This document shows positions 18,499 to 23,410 of a stretch of DNA of 36,473 bases, piece after piece; position 1 is the first letter of the stretch; each line of letters starts with the position of its first letter. Made by a program: the position numbers and the translations under genes. The DNA comes from Lachnospiraceae bacterium (GTDB lineage: Bacteria > Bacillota > Clostridia > Lachnospirales > Lachnospiraceae), in NCBI GenBank assembly GCA_021771755.1, contig JAETOL010000024.1, forward strand, positions 1 through 36,473. The letters are read 5' to 3'. The notes under the pieces are model-generated. The model was not told the origin of the DNA and did no database searches. It was given only the letters and a program-made list of their open reading frames with translations.

Positions 18499-19680
18499 TT
18501 ATTTGTTCTGCTCCATATAGTTGTTTACACAGCGTTTGATACGATCCACAGGATTCAGCAGGTGGCTGATGGACATATCATGATTCAGGGTATCCACGAT
18601 AAGAGCGATGTATTTACTCATATCACAGGAGATATAATATGGTTTTTCCAGAAGCTCCGGTGTCTGATATACCAGGTTGGTGGTAAGGAGCTTATCGAAA
18701 TAGCCCTTCTTAAATCCTTCGTCAAATTTTTCCAGACCGTCTGTAAAGAAGCCGAAAGTAGAACAGATATAGATCTTTCCGGCACCTCTTTCTTTCAGAA
18801 GAGAGGCAATCTTAAGGATGGTATTACCGGAAGAGATCATATCATCGATAAGAATCATGTCCTTGCCTGCCAGCTTCGGTCCAAGGAATTCGTAAGCGGC
18901 AATCGGATGGCGTCCGTTGATACGTTTAGAGTAGTCCAGACGTTTGTAATACATACCCATATCCACACCCAGCACGTTTGCAAGGTAGATAGCGCGGTTC
19001 ATACTTCCCTCATCCGGACTGATGATCATAAAATGCTCGTTGTCGATCTGAAGCCCTTTTTCGTGTTTCAGAAGTGCTTTTATGAACTGATAAGAAGGTT
19101 TTACAGTTTCAAAGCCGTGGAGAGGAGTTGCATTCTGGACACGGGCGTCATGGGCATCAAAAGTAATGATGTTTTCTACACCCATAGATGTCAGCTCCTG
19201 AAGAGCAGTTGCGCAGTCCAGGGATTCACGGCCTACACGTTTGTTCTGTCTGCTTTCATAAAGATAAGGCATGATAACATTGATCCTGCGGGCTTTGCCT
19301 CCGATTGCGCCGATTGCACGCTTCAGATCCTGAAAATGATCATCCGGGGACATAAGGTTGGTAAAACCTCCCATACGATAAGTCAGACTGTAGTTGCACA
19401 CATCAACCATCAGATAAACATCATCACCGCGGACAGATTCTGTGATCACGGATTTGCCCTCACCAGAGCCGAAACGGGGATTCTGGACATTGATGATATA
19501 GGAATCTCTCTGATAGCCCTCAAAAGCAAAGGAACTCATTTCCTGATGATCCCTTTCGCGTCTCCATTTCGCAAGCCAGTCGTTGACTTTTGCTCCAAGT
19601 GACTGGCAGCTTTCCAGCGGGATCAGTCCCAGTCTTCCTACAGGGAGTGTTGTCAGATCTTTGGTGCTTAACTGTGCCAT
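18499..19680 (-). CDS. prs: ribose-phosphate pyrophosphokinase (PRPP synthetase)
   Basis: Makes PRPP from ribose-5-phosphate and ATP for nucleotide, His and Trp synthesis. 393 residues, longer than the usual 310-320 form because of an N-terminal extension and insertions such as GFGSGEGKS. The PRPP-binding loop IDDMISSGNT and the flag-like region around YLYESRQNKR are present. It begins four bases after the dnaC stop, with AGGAGGA inside the dnaC end, so translation is coupled. Longer PRPP synthetases of this type occur in Clostridia. The link of prs to primosome genes suggests one transcript from the dnaD promoter. Confidence 0.93.
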   Translation of the reverse strand: MAQLSTKDLTTLPVGRLGLIPLESCQSLGAKVNDWLAKWRRERDHQEMSSFAFEGYQRDSYIINVQNPRFGSGEGKSVITESVRGDDVYLMVDVCNYSLTYRMGGFTNLMSPDDHFQDLKRAIGAIGGKARRINVIMPYLYESRQNKRVGRESLDCATALQELTSMGVENIITFDAHDARVQNATPLHGFETVKPSYQFIKALLKHEKGLQIDNEHFMIISPDEGSMNRAIYLANVLGVDMGMYYKRLDYSKRINGRHPIAAYEFLGPKLAGKDMILIDDMISSGNTILKIASLLKERGAGKIYICSTFGFFTDGLEKFDEGFKKGYFDKLLTTNLVYQTPELLEKPYYISCDMSKYIALIVDTLNHDMSISHLLNPVDRIKRCVNNYMEQNK

Positions 19681-19683
19681 TCT

Positions 19684-20673
19684 TTATTTTCCTCCTAAAA
19701 AAATTTTCTGTATACGGATATCCTTTCCGATGAGTTTGATCATCTGGAAATTGCTGGCGATCCGGGAGAAGGTTCTCTCGGAATAAGTTGCGGAAAAATC
19801 TTCCAGCTTCAGGTTGGTGGAGATGATCGTAGACCGCCTGCGGGCGATACGTTCATTGATGCACAAAAAAAGCTGCGAAGATACAAAGCTGTTGGTAAGC
19901 TCTGTTCCAAGGTCGTCAATGATCAGAAGATCACAGTCATAAATGAAATCCTCTCCCGGATCATGTTCCGACCTTTTATGAAAGGTATTCTGCGCCATTT
20001 TATCAAAAAGATCAAAGGCTGAAAAATACAATACGCAGTGAGCCGTCTTCAAAAGCTCATGGGCAATACAGTGAGAAAGAAAGGTCTTGCCCACTCCGGT
20101 GCTGCCGTACAGGAACAGGTTCTGACAACGGGTGTCAAAGTCCTGAACAAAACTTCTGGCGGCTTCATAGGCACGCAGGGCAGTTTCCCGGGCAGTCAAT
20201 CCGGTTGCCTCATTTTTTATTGTATCAGAATACCAATCAAAAGAAAAGTGCTCAAAATTTTCTTTTTCCAGGATTTCTGCCAGGTTGGACTGGGTATATA
20301 AAAGCTCTATCTCTGCTTTTTTGAAGCAGGAGCATTTCTGGCTGCCTATATATCCGGTGTCCTGACAGTGGGGACAGATATAATGCGGTTCCAGATAATT
20401 TTCCGGAAACCCTTCTGTTTTTAGAAGTGTACGCCGTTCCTGCGCCAGCGCAGCCACTTCTTTTTTCAGATCTTCCACAGAACCGTTTCCTCCGCTTAGC
20501 AGGGAACGAGCCTTCTGAGCGCTTAAAGAAGCCACTTCCTGGTCGATCTGGGAAAGGCGGGGGATTTTGGCAAAGGCATTTCTGCGCCGTTCCTCCAGGT
20601 CATGCTGTACATGAGCCTGATGCCGGTTGTATTCTCTCATGATCACATCGTACTGAAAATTCTGCAGTGCCAC
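19684..20673 (-). CDS. DnaC/DnaI-type helicase loader ATPase
   Basis: 329 residues. The N-terminal half has a helical region and a likely zinc site (Cys100, Cys103, Cys114, Cys116) as in DnaI. The AAA+ core follows: Walker A GSTGVGKT (190-197), Walker B LLIIDDLG (about 250), sensor 1 region IISTNL, and an arginine-finger region SERTFSRI. It should load the replicative helicase onto DNA with the DnaD-like partner encoded just upstream. The start is GTG 20673 with GGAGGG five bases ahead. IstB-type transposon ATPases are related, but there is no adjacent istA and the zinc domain favours DnaI. Confidence 0.9.
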   Translation of the reverse strand: MALQNFQYDVIMREYNRHQAHVQHDLEERRRNAFAKIPRLSQIDQEVASLSAQKARSLLSGGNGSVEDLKKEVAALAQERRTLLKTEGFPENYLEPHYICPHCQDTGYIGSQKCSCFKKAEIELLYTQSNLAEILEKENFEHFSFDWYSDTIKNEATGLTARETALRAYEAARSFVQDFDTRCQNLFLYGSTGVGKTFLSHCIAHELLKTAHCVLYFSAFDLFDKMAQNTFHKRSEHDPGEDFIYDCDLLIIDDLGTELTNSFVSSQLFLCINERIARRRSTIISTNLKLEDFSATYSERTFSRIASNFQMIKLIGKDIRIQKIFLGGK

Positions 20674-20697
20674 CTTATCCCTCCTGTCTCAAAATGT

Positions 20698-21732
20698 TTA
20701 CTGGTTCAGCAGACGCTTCTCGTATTCGTCAAAGTTATACTCACGCTGCTGGAAATTGTTGAATTTGTTGCCGGAAGCCGGAGCTGCCGGAGCTTTCGCC
20801 TGCTTTTTTTCCTGTTTGCGTTTTTTGTATTCTGCATCCAGGGCCTGAATGTCTTCCAGACTTTTGACCTGCTTCTTTTTCCATCCTTCCAGGATCTTGT
20901 CTGCGTACTGGAAGCTTGCCTGTCCGGTCTGCAGGACAGTCCTTGTACAGGCTTCCTGAATAACGGCCAGGGAAAAACCGTAGGTCTTGAGCCAGGTATC
21001 CATAAGAGTGACTTCTGTTTCTACCGGGCTTCTGTTGGTGATGCCCAGTGCCTTGAGGATAGAGTAGTAATCCTTACTGTACCGGGCGTTTGTTTTTTTG
21101 GCCTCTGCTACTGTGGAGATTCCCTCCTGCGCCCATGCCAAAGCAACTGTTTCCATATACCGGATGCTCTTGTGGCTGCGGCTGACGCAGTACTCCAGAA
21201 GATATTCGATCAGATCTGTGGAAAAGCCCAGGCCATCGTAAAAGAAAAGAAGCTTCTGGATCTCTGACGGGGAGAGGGTTTTGCCAAGATACTGTTCTGC
21301 AATATAAAGGAGCTGGATGATCTCTTCATTTTGCTTCAGTTCCCTGACTCTGTCAGGGGTAAGAGGAGCCGTCCGTGCCGGAGCCGGCTGTTTCGGAACA
21401 GAGGAACCGGCAGTTTCCGATGCAGGAGCCTTGGATCTGGGAGGCAGAAGCGCAATTGCACGCAGGGATTTGTCATCTGTAAAATCCAGCGCAAGAAGCT
21501 CCTGGCGCGCCCAGTATTTCAGAGCACGCAAAATATCCCGCTCTGTACAGAGCAGGTGGTCTGCCATTTCTTCCAGACTAAAAGAAACCGGAGTAGTGGA
21601 CAGCGCACGTAAAAGATAAATATAAACTTTTACAAACTCACCATTGGCCTCCGGCATGTAGTCGTCTATAAATATATTGGACAGAAGCGTAACCTCTGAC
21701 TGGGAGGGCTTCTGAAGTGTGATCATACCCAT
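20698..21732 (-). CDS. DnaD-domain primosome protein
   Basis: 344 residues. An N-terminal winged-helix domain (about 10-90, with FIDDYMPEANGEFVKVYIYLLR) is followed by a low-complexity linker rich in Ala, Pro and Ser (about 100-130), then two DnaD/DnaB_2-type helical domains (IIQLLYIAEQYLGKTLSPSEIQK, and a later EACTRTVLQTGQASFQYADKILEGW region). This is the DnaD/DnaB family that helps DnaI load helicase at origins and stalled forks. I chose ATG 21732, seven bases after GGGAG, over 21783. A DnaA-box-rich region lies directly upstream. Confidence 0.88.
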   Translation of the reverse strand: MGMITLQKPSQSEVTLLSNIFIDDYMPEANGEFVKVYIYLLRALSTTPVSFSLEEMADHLLCTERDILRALKYWARQELLALDFTDDKSLRAIALLPPRSKAPASETAGSSVPKQPAPARTAPLTPDRVRELKQNEEIIQLLYIAEQYLGKTLSPSEIQKLLFFYDGLGFSTDLIEYLLEYCVSRSHKSIRYMETVALAWAQEGISTVAEAKKTNARYSKDYYSILKALGITNRSPVETEVTLMDTWLKTYGFSLAVIQEACTRTVLQTGQASFQYADKILEGWKKKQVKSLEDIQALDAEYKKRKQEKKQAKAPAAPASGNKFNNFQQREYNFDEYEKRLLNQ

Positions 21733-21771
21733 GAACGATCTCCCGCTTTCTATATCTTTCGAGTCAACTGC

Positions 21772-21780
21772 ATTATAGCA
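21772..21780 (-). promoter_or_regulatory. extended -10 promoter of the dnaD-dnaC-prs operon
   Basis: On the minus strand this reads TGCTATAAT, a perfect extended -10, 40 bases before the dnaD start. No good -35 is present. The nearest DnaA-box cluster lies about 55 bases upstream, in a position where DnaA could repress or activate. Confidence 0.65.
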
Positions 21781-21835
21781 CAAGATTTTTCAAATGAGAA
21801 TAGGGTATTTTGGACTTTAACTTTCCACACAAAAA

Positions 21836-21862
21836 TGTGGAAAATGTGGATAATGTGGACAA
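21836..21862. promoter_or_regulatory. DnaA-box cluster 1 (three abutting 9-mers)
   Basis: Three 9-mers sit end to end: TGTGGAAAA, TGTGGATAA (21845-21853, exact complement of the consensus box TTATCCACA) and TGTGGACAA. The outer two have one mismatch each. The probable dnaD promoter is just beyond. Confidence 0.75.
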
Positions 21863-22000
21863 CGAATTTTGGCGGAAATTGTCTGTAAATTCTGCAACCC
21901 CTGTATTTTGTAACATTTTGGTGGATTATGCAGGAAAAAAATGTGGAATTATGTCGGTCTATAAAAGCAAAAAAAATCCACATGTCAGGCACGGGGGAAA

Positions 22001-22030
22001 TGTGTATAAACATGTGGATAATGTGGATAA
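22001..22030. promoter_or_regulatory. DnaA-box cluster 2 (two exact boxes plus one near match)
   Basis: TGTGTATAA (22001-22009, one mismatch), then two exact, abutting TGTGGATAA boxes (22013-22021 and 22022-22030). The last one touches the murC stop codon at 22031. All are in the same orientation as cluster 1. The 138 bases between the clusters are AT-rich, hold only weaker matches (for example 21920-21928 and 21974-21982), and no gene. Confidence 0.78.
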
Positions 22031-23410
22031 CTATTGTCCGAGAAGTTGTTCTCCTATATTTACAACGTCTCCGGCCCCCATAGTTATCAACAGGTCACCC
22101 TGTGTACAATTTTCAAGTAAAAAATTTTCGATCTCGTCAAAAGTCGGGAAATATTCGCAGGGAGTTCCCAGTTCCACTATTTTTTTGCAGAGATCTTCTG
22201 AGGAGATACCAAGGGTATCGGTTTCCCTTGCAGCGTAGATATCAGCCAGTACCACATGATCGGCCAGGGAAAGGGCCTGCGCAAACTCCGGAAGGAGCGC
22301 TTTGGTACGTGTGTATGTATGAGGCTGGAATACACACCAGGTTTTTTTGTGAGGATAGTTTTGGGCTGCATGGAGTGTTGCCTCGATCTCTGTTGGATGA
22401 TGTGCATAATCATCAATGATGGTCACTCCGCCTACCTGCCCTTTATACTGGAACCGGCGGTCGGTTCCGGTAAAACTGTTCAGACCTTCTGCGATCACAT
22501 CCCAGGAAAGATCCAGGAGCTGTGCCGCTGCCACTGCAGAAAGGGCGTTGGACACATTGTGGATTCCGGGAACCTGAAGGGTACAGGTGCCAAGAGGTTG
22601 TCCCTGGAAGGATACGGTAAAGGAACCATGTCCAAATTCATCATAAGTGATATCGGAAGCTGTATAATCGGCATCGTGTTCCAGACTGTAGGTGATCACG
22701 CGGCAGGAAAGACCTTTGGTGATCTGCTGATATTCCGGTGTGTCAGCATTGATGATAAGCGCGCCGTCTTCCGGAAGAAGTTCTGCAAATTTACGGAAGG
22801 ACCGGCGGATATCTTCAATATCCTTAAAGAAATCCAGATGATCGGCATCAATGTTCAGGATGATGCTGATCTTAGGGAAAAAGCTAAGGAAGCTGTTGGT
22901 ATACTCGCAGGCTTCCGTCAGGAAGGTTTCTGACTGACCTACACGGATATTTCCTCCAATGGCCGGGAGAATACCGCCTACACTGATCGTAGGGTCACAA
23001 TTTCCTTTCAGAAGGACATGAGAAAGCATGGAGGTGGTGGTTGTTTTTCCGTGAGTGCCGGAGACGGCGATGGGAGTGTCGTAATTTTTCATGATCTGTC
23101 CCAGAAGCTCAGCTCTTGTGAGCATAGGAAGATTTAATTCCTTTGCTCTGGCAAATTCCGGATTATCCGGATGGATAGCGGCTGTGTAAACCACTACCTG
23201 TATCCCGGGCTCGATATTGGAGCCGCGCTGTCCATAGAAAATTTTTGCTCCTTTTTCTTCCAGAAGCTTTGTGAGGCTGCTCTCTTTCGCGTCAGAACCG
23301 GAAACAGTAAATCCCTCTTCCAGAAGGATTTCTGCCAGTCCGCTCATACTGATGCCTCCAATTCCGATAAAGTGAATGGAAAGCGGTTTATGGAAGTCTA
23401 TCTGATACAT
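22031..23410 (-). CDS. murC: UDP-N-acetylmuramate--L-alanine ligase
   Basis: Adds L-alanine to UDP-MurNAc with ATP, the first amino-acid step in peptidoglycan precursor synthesis, in the cytoplasm. 459 residues, normal. The Rossmann-type N-terminal domain begins FIGIGGISMSGLA, the Mur ligase ATP loop is GTHGKTTTT (118-126), and later conserved regions include IDADHLD, PGIHNVSNALSA and DDYAHHPTEI. AGGAG precedes ATG 23410. No terminator is evident after its TAG stop; the DnaA-box region begins at once. Confidence 0.97.
   Translation of the reverse strand: MYQIDFHKPLSIHFIGIGGISMSGLAEILLEEGFTVSGSDAKESSLTKLLEEKGAKIFYGQRGSNIEPGIQVVVYTAAIHPDNPEFARAKELNLPMLTRAELLGQIMKNYDTPIAVSGTHGKTTTTSMLSHVLLKGNCDPTISVGGILPAIGGNIRVGQSETFLTEACEYTNSFLSFFPKISIILNIDADHLDFFKDIEDIRRSFRKFAELLPEDGALIINADTPEYQQITKGLSCRVITYSLEHDADYTASDITYDEFGHGSFTVSFQGQPLGTCTLQVPGIHNVSNALSAVAAAQLLDLSWDVIAEGLNSFTGTDRRFQYKGQVGGVTIIDDYAHHPTEIEATLHAAQNYPHKKTWCVFQPHTYTRTKALLPEFAQALSLADHVVLADIYAARETDTLGISSEDLCKKIVELGTPCEYFPTFDEIENFLLENCTQGDLLITMGAGDVVNIGEQLLGQ

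Follow-up and report, generated by a model that had tools for sequence, protein, structure and literature searches.

The window, that is, the whole 36,473-nucleotide stretch of DNA analysed here, corresponds to contig C5 in a genome of 3.70 Mb (G000). Profile matches bear out the gene order that had been read in a first-pass annotation of the sequence, with murC followed by dnaD, a dnaC-type helicase loader and prs (Table 1). The murC–dnaD gap is 298 bp long and contains six predicted DnaA boxes in one direction, of which three are exact. On the + strand they begin at 21836 (TGTGGAAAA), 21845 (exact), 21854 (TGTGGACAA), 22001 (TGTGTATAA), and 22013 and 22022 (both exact), each with no more than one mismatch, as the annotation had reported together with the contact between the last box and the murC stop codon. 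Read on the gene strand, the boxes are TTATCCACA and point toward dnaD. They form a distal cluster beside murC and a proximal cluster nearer dnaD, separated in the window by 168 bp from first base to first base.

Table 1 Features of the murC–dnaD locus, in coordinates of the window.
Feature	Position	Strand	Remarks
prs-like PRPP synthetase	18499..19680	-	PRK06827 over cut-off
dnaC-type helicase-loader ATPase	19684..20673	-	PRK06835 over cut-off
dnaD, DnaD-domain protein, 344 aa	20698..21732	-	TIGR01446; first gene of the proposed operon
Predicted dnaD promoter	21772..21800	-	-35 TTCTCA, 17 bp, extended -10 TGCTATAAT (TATAAT with TG); consensus scan
Proximal cluster, three abutting predicted boxes	21836..21862	-	TTGTCCACA-TTATCCACA-TTTTCCACA
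murC intrinsic-terminator-like hairpin, then T run	21969..22019	-	Arms 22010-22019 and 21976-21985 (ATCCACATGT / ACATGTGGAT)
Third distal box	22001..22009	-	TTATACACA; 3 bp past the distal pair
Distal cluster, two abutting exact boxes	22013..22030	-	TTATCCACA x2; immediately after the murC stop codon
murC	22031..23410	-	TIGR01082 over cut-off; stop codon 22031-22033 adjoins the box ending at 22030

The extended -10 promoter that had been placed beyond the boxes was recovered by a consensus scan, with the proximal cluster starting 85 bp before its -10. Since 1.6 such matches are expected by chance in this stretch, support for the promoter comes from its conservation across relatives, described below.

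When one mismatch is allowed, the window contains 25 matches, compared with 9.7 ± 3.0 in shuffled sequences (0 of 100 shuffles reach 25), and the exact 9-mer occurs 84 times in the genome against 17 times for a reversed-letter control. The exact abutting pair is found at two places only, in the murC–dnaD gap and at C91:90507. A box-rich region lies upstream of dnaA on another contig and includes exact copies of the same 9-mer. In the 2.5 kb that we searched around oriC and dnaA, no two boxes abut in the same direction even when two mismatches are allowed; a looser pair with one base between the boxes, TTATACACA-T-TTTTCCACA, is present in this stretch. A chance cluster is rejected by the shuffles, the genome-wide counts and the conservation.

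Exact single boxes are one-stranded on some contigs (C148 8/8, C8 4/4, C11 3/3), while other contigs, such as C24, C120 and C132, carry them on both strands. A strand preference of single boxes along the replichores is conceivable. At one further locus (L011, G000:C120:76450-76593) three exact boxes on the same strand lie beside a reading frame resembling a secreted repeat protein. The second site with an exact pair (L003, G000:C91:90507) is itself conserved (L045, L046, L049, L053, L066, L067, L069, L070 and L071). In most copies TTATCCACA precedes the pair by approximately 44 bp, a TTATACACCAA-like stretch adjoins the pair on its near side, just ahead of it, and approximately 50–60 bp after the pair comes a GTTTTGT-like element, which we take to be LexA-like. 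An hpf-like gene lies within 1.5 kb of this second site in 7/9 family loci, on the opposite side in L067, and none was found in 19 kb around the copy in the window's own genome (L009).

Occurrence of the paired boxes among relatives

The comparison covers 178 regions upstream of dnaD, taken from the genus and the GTDB family to which the window belongs. Thirty come from a search of the genus (those given a locus among 38 genomes, the window's own included) and 148 from a family sample of about one genome per genus, one of which belongs to the window's genus. The family sample comprises the best 150 of 237 family genomes with a DnaD match, minus the window itself and G087, in which the start of the gene coincides with the end of a contig; DnaD genes with weak matches are therefore under-sampled. 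In 177/178 regions murC lies upstream of dnaD on the same strand. An abutting (TTATCCACA)x2 pair (up to two mismatches in 18) is present in 148/178, so that conservation in related genomes, the test named in the first-pass annotation, turned out in favour of the boxes. Two clusters were found in 106 regions, one in 42 and none in 30, with dnaD present in all. The same search gave 0/178 for a pair in the opposite direction and 0/178 for letter-reversed controls. Among the 148 regions with a pair, the first pair begins 0–2 nt past the stop codon of murC in 115, and 62 of these 115 have a box with up to two mismatches at the offset of the third distal box.

Searches with the exact 18-mer pair gave a similar picture. 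The pair occurs in 226/396 family genomes (the reversed-letter control is zero among the matches listed), and several carry two exact pairs on one strand, often approximately 145–190 bp apart. Twenty of the 30 exact-pair loci returned by the family search, the window's own included, lie in the murC–dnaD gap. Among named genomes, which may overlap the other genome sets, 71/80 have at least one cluster and 59/80 have two. Judged by DnaD, the nearest relative with a name is a Blautia (77%), in a search from which the records nearest the window's genome may be left out.

Beyond the family, we took 50 genomes picked by hand among the matches listed for 161 non-family genomes. In other families of the order the pair is present in 28 of the 35 sampled murC-linked gaps, with two clusters in 15. 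There is no pair at 14/15 outgroup dnaD genes without a detected upstream murC, and any control by the boxes is therefore dispensable for dnaD. Behind murC in 14 unlinked genomes we found one full two-cluster element and one single cluster, and the gene downstream of these two elements, read by eye, is a different or a convergent one. Boxes kept beside murC without dnaD fit poorly with a role in dnaD control alone. The element may have had an older, murC-linked role, or may act in titration, with dnaD control added or lost. We regard the element as a real regulatory element that is conserved over much of the order.

Across the class, the exact pair was found in 22/146 genomes, 3 of them in the window's family. 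Seventeen of the other 19 had a locus, and tblastn detected murC or dnaD at 0/17 of these non-family loci. At five loci from other families of the class (L406, L413, L415, L416 and L417) the exact pair lies approximately 35–340 bp past the 3′ end of a gene taken by eye to encode a DnaB-type replicative helicase, and in four of the five a FAD-dependent oxidoreductase-like gene follows the pair.

Spacing of the clusters and the promoter

The spacing between the clusters ranges from 77 to 189 bp in 80 two-cluster family genomes, with peaks near 88, 98, 121, 131, 142, 155, 166 and 176. These spacings are phased (R = 0.71 at 11.3 bp), with 0/500 jitter sets as high, and counting each distinct spacing once gives R = 0.59 at 11.2 bp, with 0/2000 random sets as high. 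We built the jitter and shuffle controls for the phasing and trio tests ourselves. Relatedness was controlled for with disjoint pairs on a MurC tree containing 111 of the 121 two-cluster genomes. Of 55 such pairs, 27 differ in cluster spacing by at least 5 bp, and their mean cosine is 0.52 at 11.2 bp (p = 0.0002). The effect is confined to periods near 11–11.5 bp, the same tree-pair test being non-significant at 10.5 bp (p = 0.12) and at 9 bp (p = 0.66). Growth of the arrays by 9-bp units is disfavoured as the source of this phasing, with R = 0.32 and a pair cosine of -0.05 at 9 bp. The spacings thus tend to fall at multiples of a helical repeat of approximately 11.2 bp, as DNA looping would produce. 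In vivo, DNA loops have been described, in the available portions of the sources, with a helical repeat of approximately 11 bp (PMC8501960) and approximately 10.9 (PMC1831498). Because the period matches that of loops in vivo, we propose looping between the clusters.

The proximal cluster is also phased relative to the promoter. A -10 match was found in 101 two-cluster genomes, and in 73 of these the cluster lies 76, 86–87 or 96–97 bp from the extended -10; for the 75 that belong to the family sample, R is 0.88 at 10.4 bp. When the promoter was sought across the whole gap regardless of the boxes, R was 0.85 at 10.1 bp, and for the 16 tree pairs that differ in this distance the mean cosine was 0.80 for a period of 10 bp and 0.72 for one of 10.5 bp. 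As controls, we measured how far the -10, the proximal cluster, the distal cluster and the murC stop codon lie from the dnaD start codon, and these distances were unphased. Growth of the array by 9 bp could mimic part of the promoter phasing; at 9 bp R is 0.70, compared with 0.87–0.88 at 10–10.5 bp, and the pair cosine is 0.36, compared with 0.80 at 10 bp. Fifteen one-cluster genomes have gaps no longer than 155 bp. In 11 of them the cluster stands 84–86 bp before the -10 (in the others at 64, 64, 98 and 109), and these 11 agreeing genomes may be close relatives. Off-value distances exist, for example 137–166, and one promoter call falls upstream of the cluster.

Consensus DnaA boxes lie next to a predicted promoter, and boxes and promoter are conserved together, the pair being absent in 30 of the 178 regions. 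The region from -35 to +1 of the best promoter in the gap is overlapped by paired boxes in 0/142 cases, and the promoter is downstream of the boxes in 141/142. Paired boxes that stay off the promoter in all 142 regions fit a regulator that touches RNA polymerase from one face, in the manner of class I activation or of a loop of the ara type.

A hairpin behind murC

The distal cluster overlaps an inverted repeat that resembles an intrinsic terminator for murC. The 5′ arm of the hairpin combines some bases of the second distal DnaA box with those that follow the box, and the 3′ arm is an inverted box. An inverted TGTGGAT with a T-rich tail stands behind the distal pair in 74/101 family genomes, and in these the stem and T run are accompanied by covariation. 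The extension pairs beside the box core interchange between A-T, T-A, G-C and C-G, and fail to pair in 3, 6, 6 and 18 of the 74. A generic terminator scan, restricted to loops of up to 8 nt, detected none at the hairpin site.

The first distal box lies outside the stem, matches the second box in conservation, and is 87–100% conserved per column in 116 genomes that were selected for resemblance to the pair. As this box is unpaired and yet just as conserved, the distal array probably serves both DnaA and murC termination. A single short sequence would then be both a predicted initiator site and a terminator stem. The view that the array is a terminator only is rejected, since neither box 1 nor the proximal array belongs to the stem.

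Proposed control of dnaD by DnaA

We propose, with a probability of about 0.7, that the murC–dnaD gap is a DnaA-controlled promoter region with two looped arrays, in which DnaA acts from one helix face. The boxes with their conservation and single orientation, both phasings and the conserved promoter match are observations, from which we infer that DnaA occupies the boxes, that the DNA loops, that the genes form an operon and that their transcription is affected. DnaA would bind the proximal array of two to three abutting boxes, approximately 60–110 bp before the point where dnaD transcription probably starts, and the distal array of two to three boxes right after murC, 77–189 bp (mostly 153–168) further upstream. 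DnaA at the two arrays would meet by looping out the intervening DNA. Given such a looped contact, occupancy would be cooperative and sensitive to the amount of DnaA, perhaps also to its ATP state. From its fixed helix face at the proximal array, DnaA would act on RNA polymerase at the weak -35/extended -10 promoter, and expression of dnaD-dnaC-prs set in this way would couple the supply of helicase loader to the initiator. Whether DnaA would activate or repress is close to an even guess. We lean slightly to activation, since the arrays keep to the upstream side of the promoter and do not cover it. The two predicted, helically phased box groups that Blautia and its relatives carry upstream of the helicase-loader genes suggest direct control by DnaA over how much of its own loading machinery is available.

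Several alternatives were weighed against DnaA control of the dnaD promoter. The locus might be an origin-proximal sink that titrates DnaA, or a datA/DARS-like site that alters its nucleotide state, with the dnaD promoter as a bystander. Consistent with this, the site lies approximately 0.2–0.7 Mb from dnaA in 11 genomes with both on one contig, worked out by hand (for example 353 kb in G036, 333 kb in G008, 225 kb in G362 and 208 kb in G408); boxes remain behind murC in some genomes without dnaD linkage; and removal of six DnaA-box clusters is described, in the available part of the source, to cause early initiation in Bacillus. A sink, however, would work without a fixed helix face with respect to the dnaD -10 and without a spacing that is kept in one-cluster short gaps, and we consider it unlikely. 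That the distal repeats are mainly a murC transcription terminator, with their resemblance to DnaA boxes secondary, draws on the covarying hairpin and T-rich tail that use the second distal box. It leaves the conservation of box 1, the proximal cluster and both phasings unexplained, and we judge it very improbable.

A separate regulator with a similar motif would account for the lack of abutting pairs in the oriC stretch of the window's genome, but the motif is the DnaA consensus letter for letter and exact copies of the 9-mer stand upstream of dnaA, leaving this reading a slim chance. The locus could instead be a secondary origin or another site at which DnaA unwinds the DNA, to which the clusters of strong boxes, the adjoining primosome genes and the AT-rich DNA between the clusters (0.68, compared with 0.54 in the first 600 bp of the regions, mostly murC) would be suited. 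Trio-like repeats, however, are found near 3/254 clusters, compared with 14 in one set of shuffled flanks, so there is no DnaA-trio enrichment; the locus shows neither a GC-skew switch nor a dnaA neighbourhood; and the box-rich region upstream of dnaA is elsewhere in the genome. All 18 bins of the window have a positive GC skew, and the check for a nearby origin that the first-pass annotation had suggested therefore revealed no change of sign. We reject a second origin on the trios, the skew and the box region at dnaA, and give it next to no credence.

The first-pass annotation had offered three roles for the boxes. Control of the primosome operon by DnaA is the best of these, favoured by the conservation and by the helical phasing to the dnaD promoter; titration is possible, and the secondary unwinding site is disfavoured for the reasons given above. 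The phasing, the presence across relatives and the overlap with the terminator-like hairpin had been overlooked. DnaA binding near dnaB-dnaI in Bacillus, which the annotation had mentioned, was neither borne out nor contradicted by the passages of the literature consulted. A broader version of DnaA control, which we put forward tentatively and think somewhat doubtful, is an order-wide switch in which DnaA at two looped arrays, origin-like but without unwinding, would sense its own state and gate helicase-loader production. The distal array would double as the terminator, so that read-through from murC could reset the switch.

DnaA is already known as a regulator of transcription and as a protein that loops DNA; the unusual features here are the abutting boxes, the double phasing and the target. 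At araCBAD two sites lie upstream of the promoter, the nearer beside RNA polymerase and the farther joined to it by a phased loop. The murC–dnaD arrangement resembles this in having two sites upstream of a promoter and a loop of comparable length, whereas its regulator would be the replication initiator. The incC unwinding region of B. subtilis likewise has its DnaA boxes in two groups, with a distal box that acts with helical phasing and a proposed DNA loop that would raise local DnaA; its target, according to the portion of the source available, is unwinding at DnaA-trios inside oriC (PMC6669920). In contrast, the murC–dnaD site shows no trio enrichment, is far from oriC and has a promoter as its phased partner. 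The DnaA-box clusters outside oriC in B. subtilis also lie away from the origin, but the available part of PMC5295017 discusses them for their effect on free DnaA and describes no phased two-cluster promoter layout. The same partial source presents datA and DARS of E. coli as DnaA-box loci outside oriC (PMC5295017); the murC–dnaD boxes are phased to a promoter. In a search of an open-access collection, we found no paper that mentions both DnaA boxes and Lachnospiraceae. For gut Clostridia the locus yields a precise and testable claim, that DnaA would control dnaD-dnaC through a phased loop. Its dozens of naturally occurring spacings also allow a helical repeat of approximately 11.2 bp to be derived purely from evolutionary comparison.

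The orientation of the genes relative to replication can also be compared. The murC-dnaD-dnaC-prs genes (18499-23410) are on the - strand, and the GC skew and long neighbouring reading frames suggest that + is the leading strand. By hand, we compared 11 relatives with dnaA and the murC–dnaD site on one contig, four of whose assemblies have more than one contig. The operon seems to be head-on to replication in ten of them and co-directional in G148.
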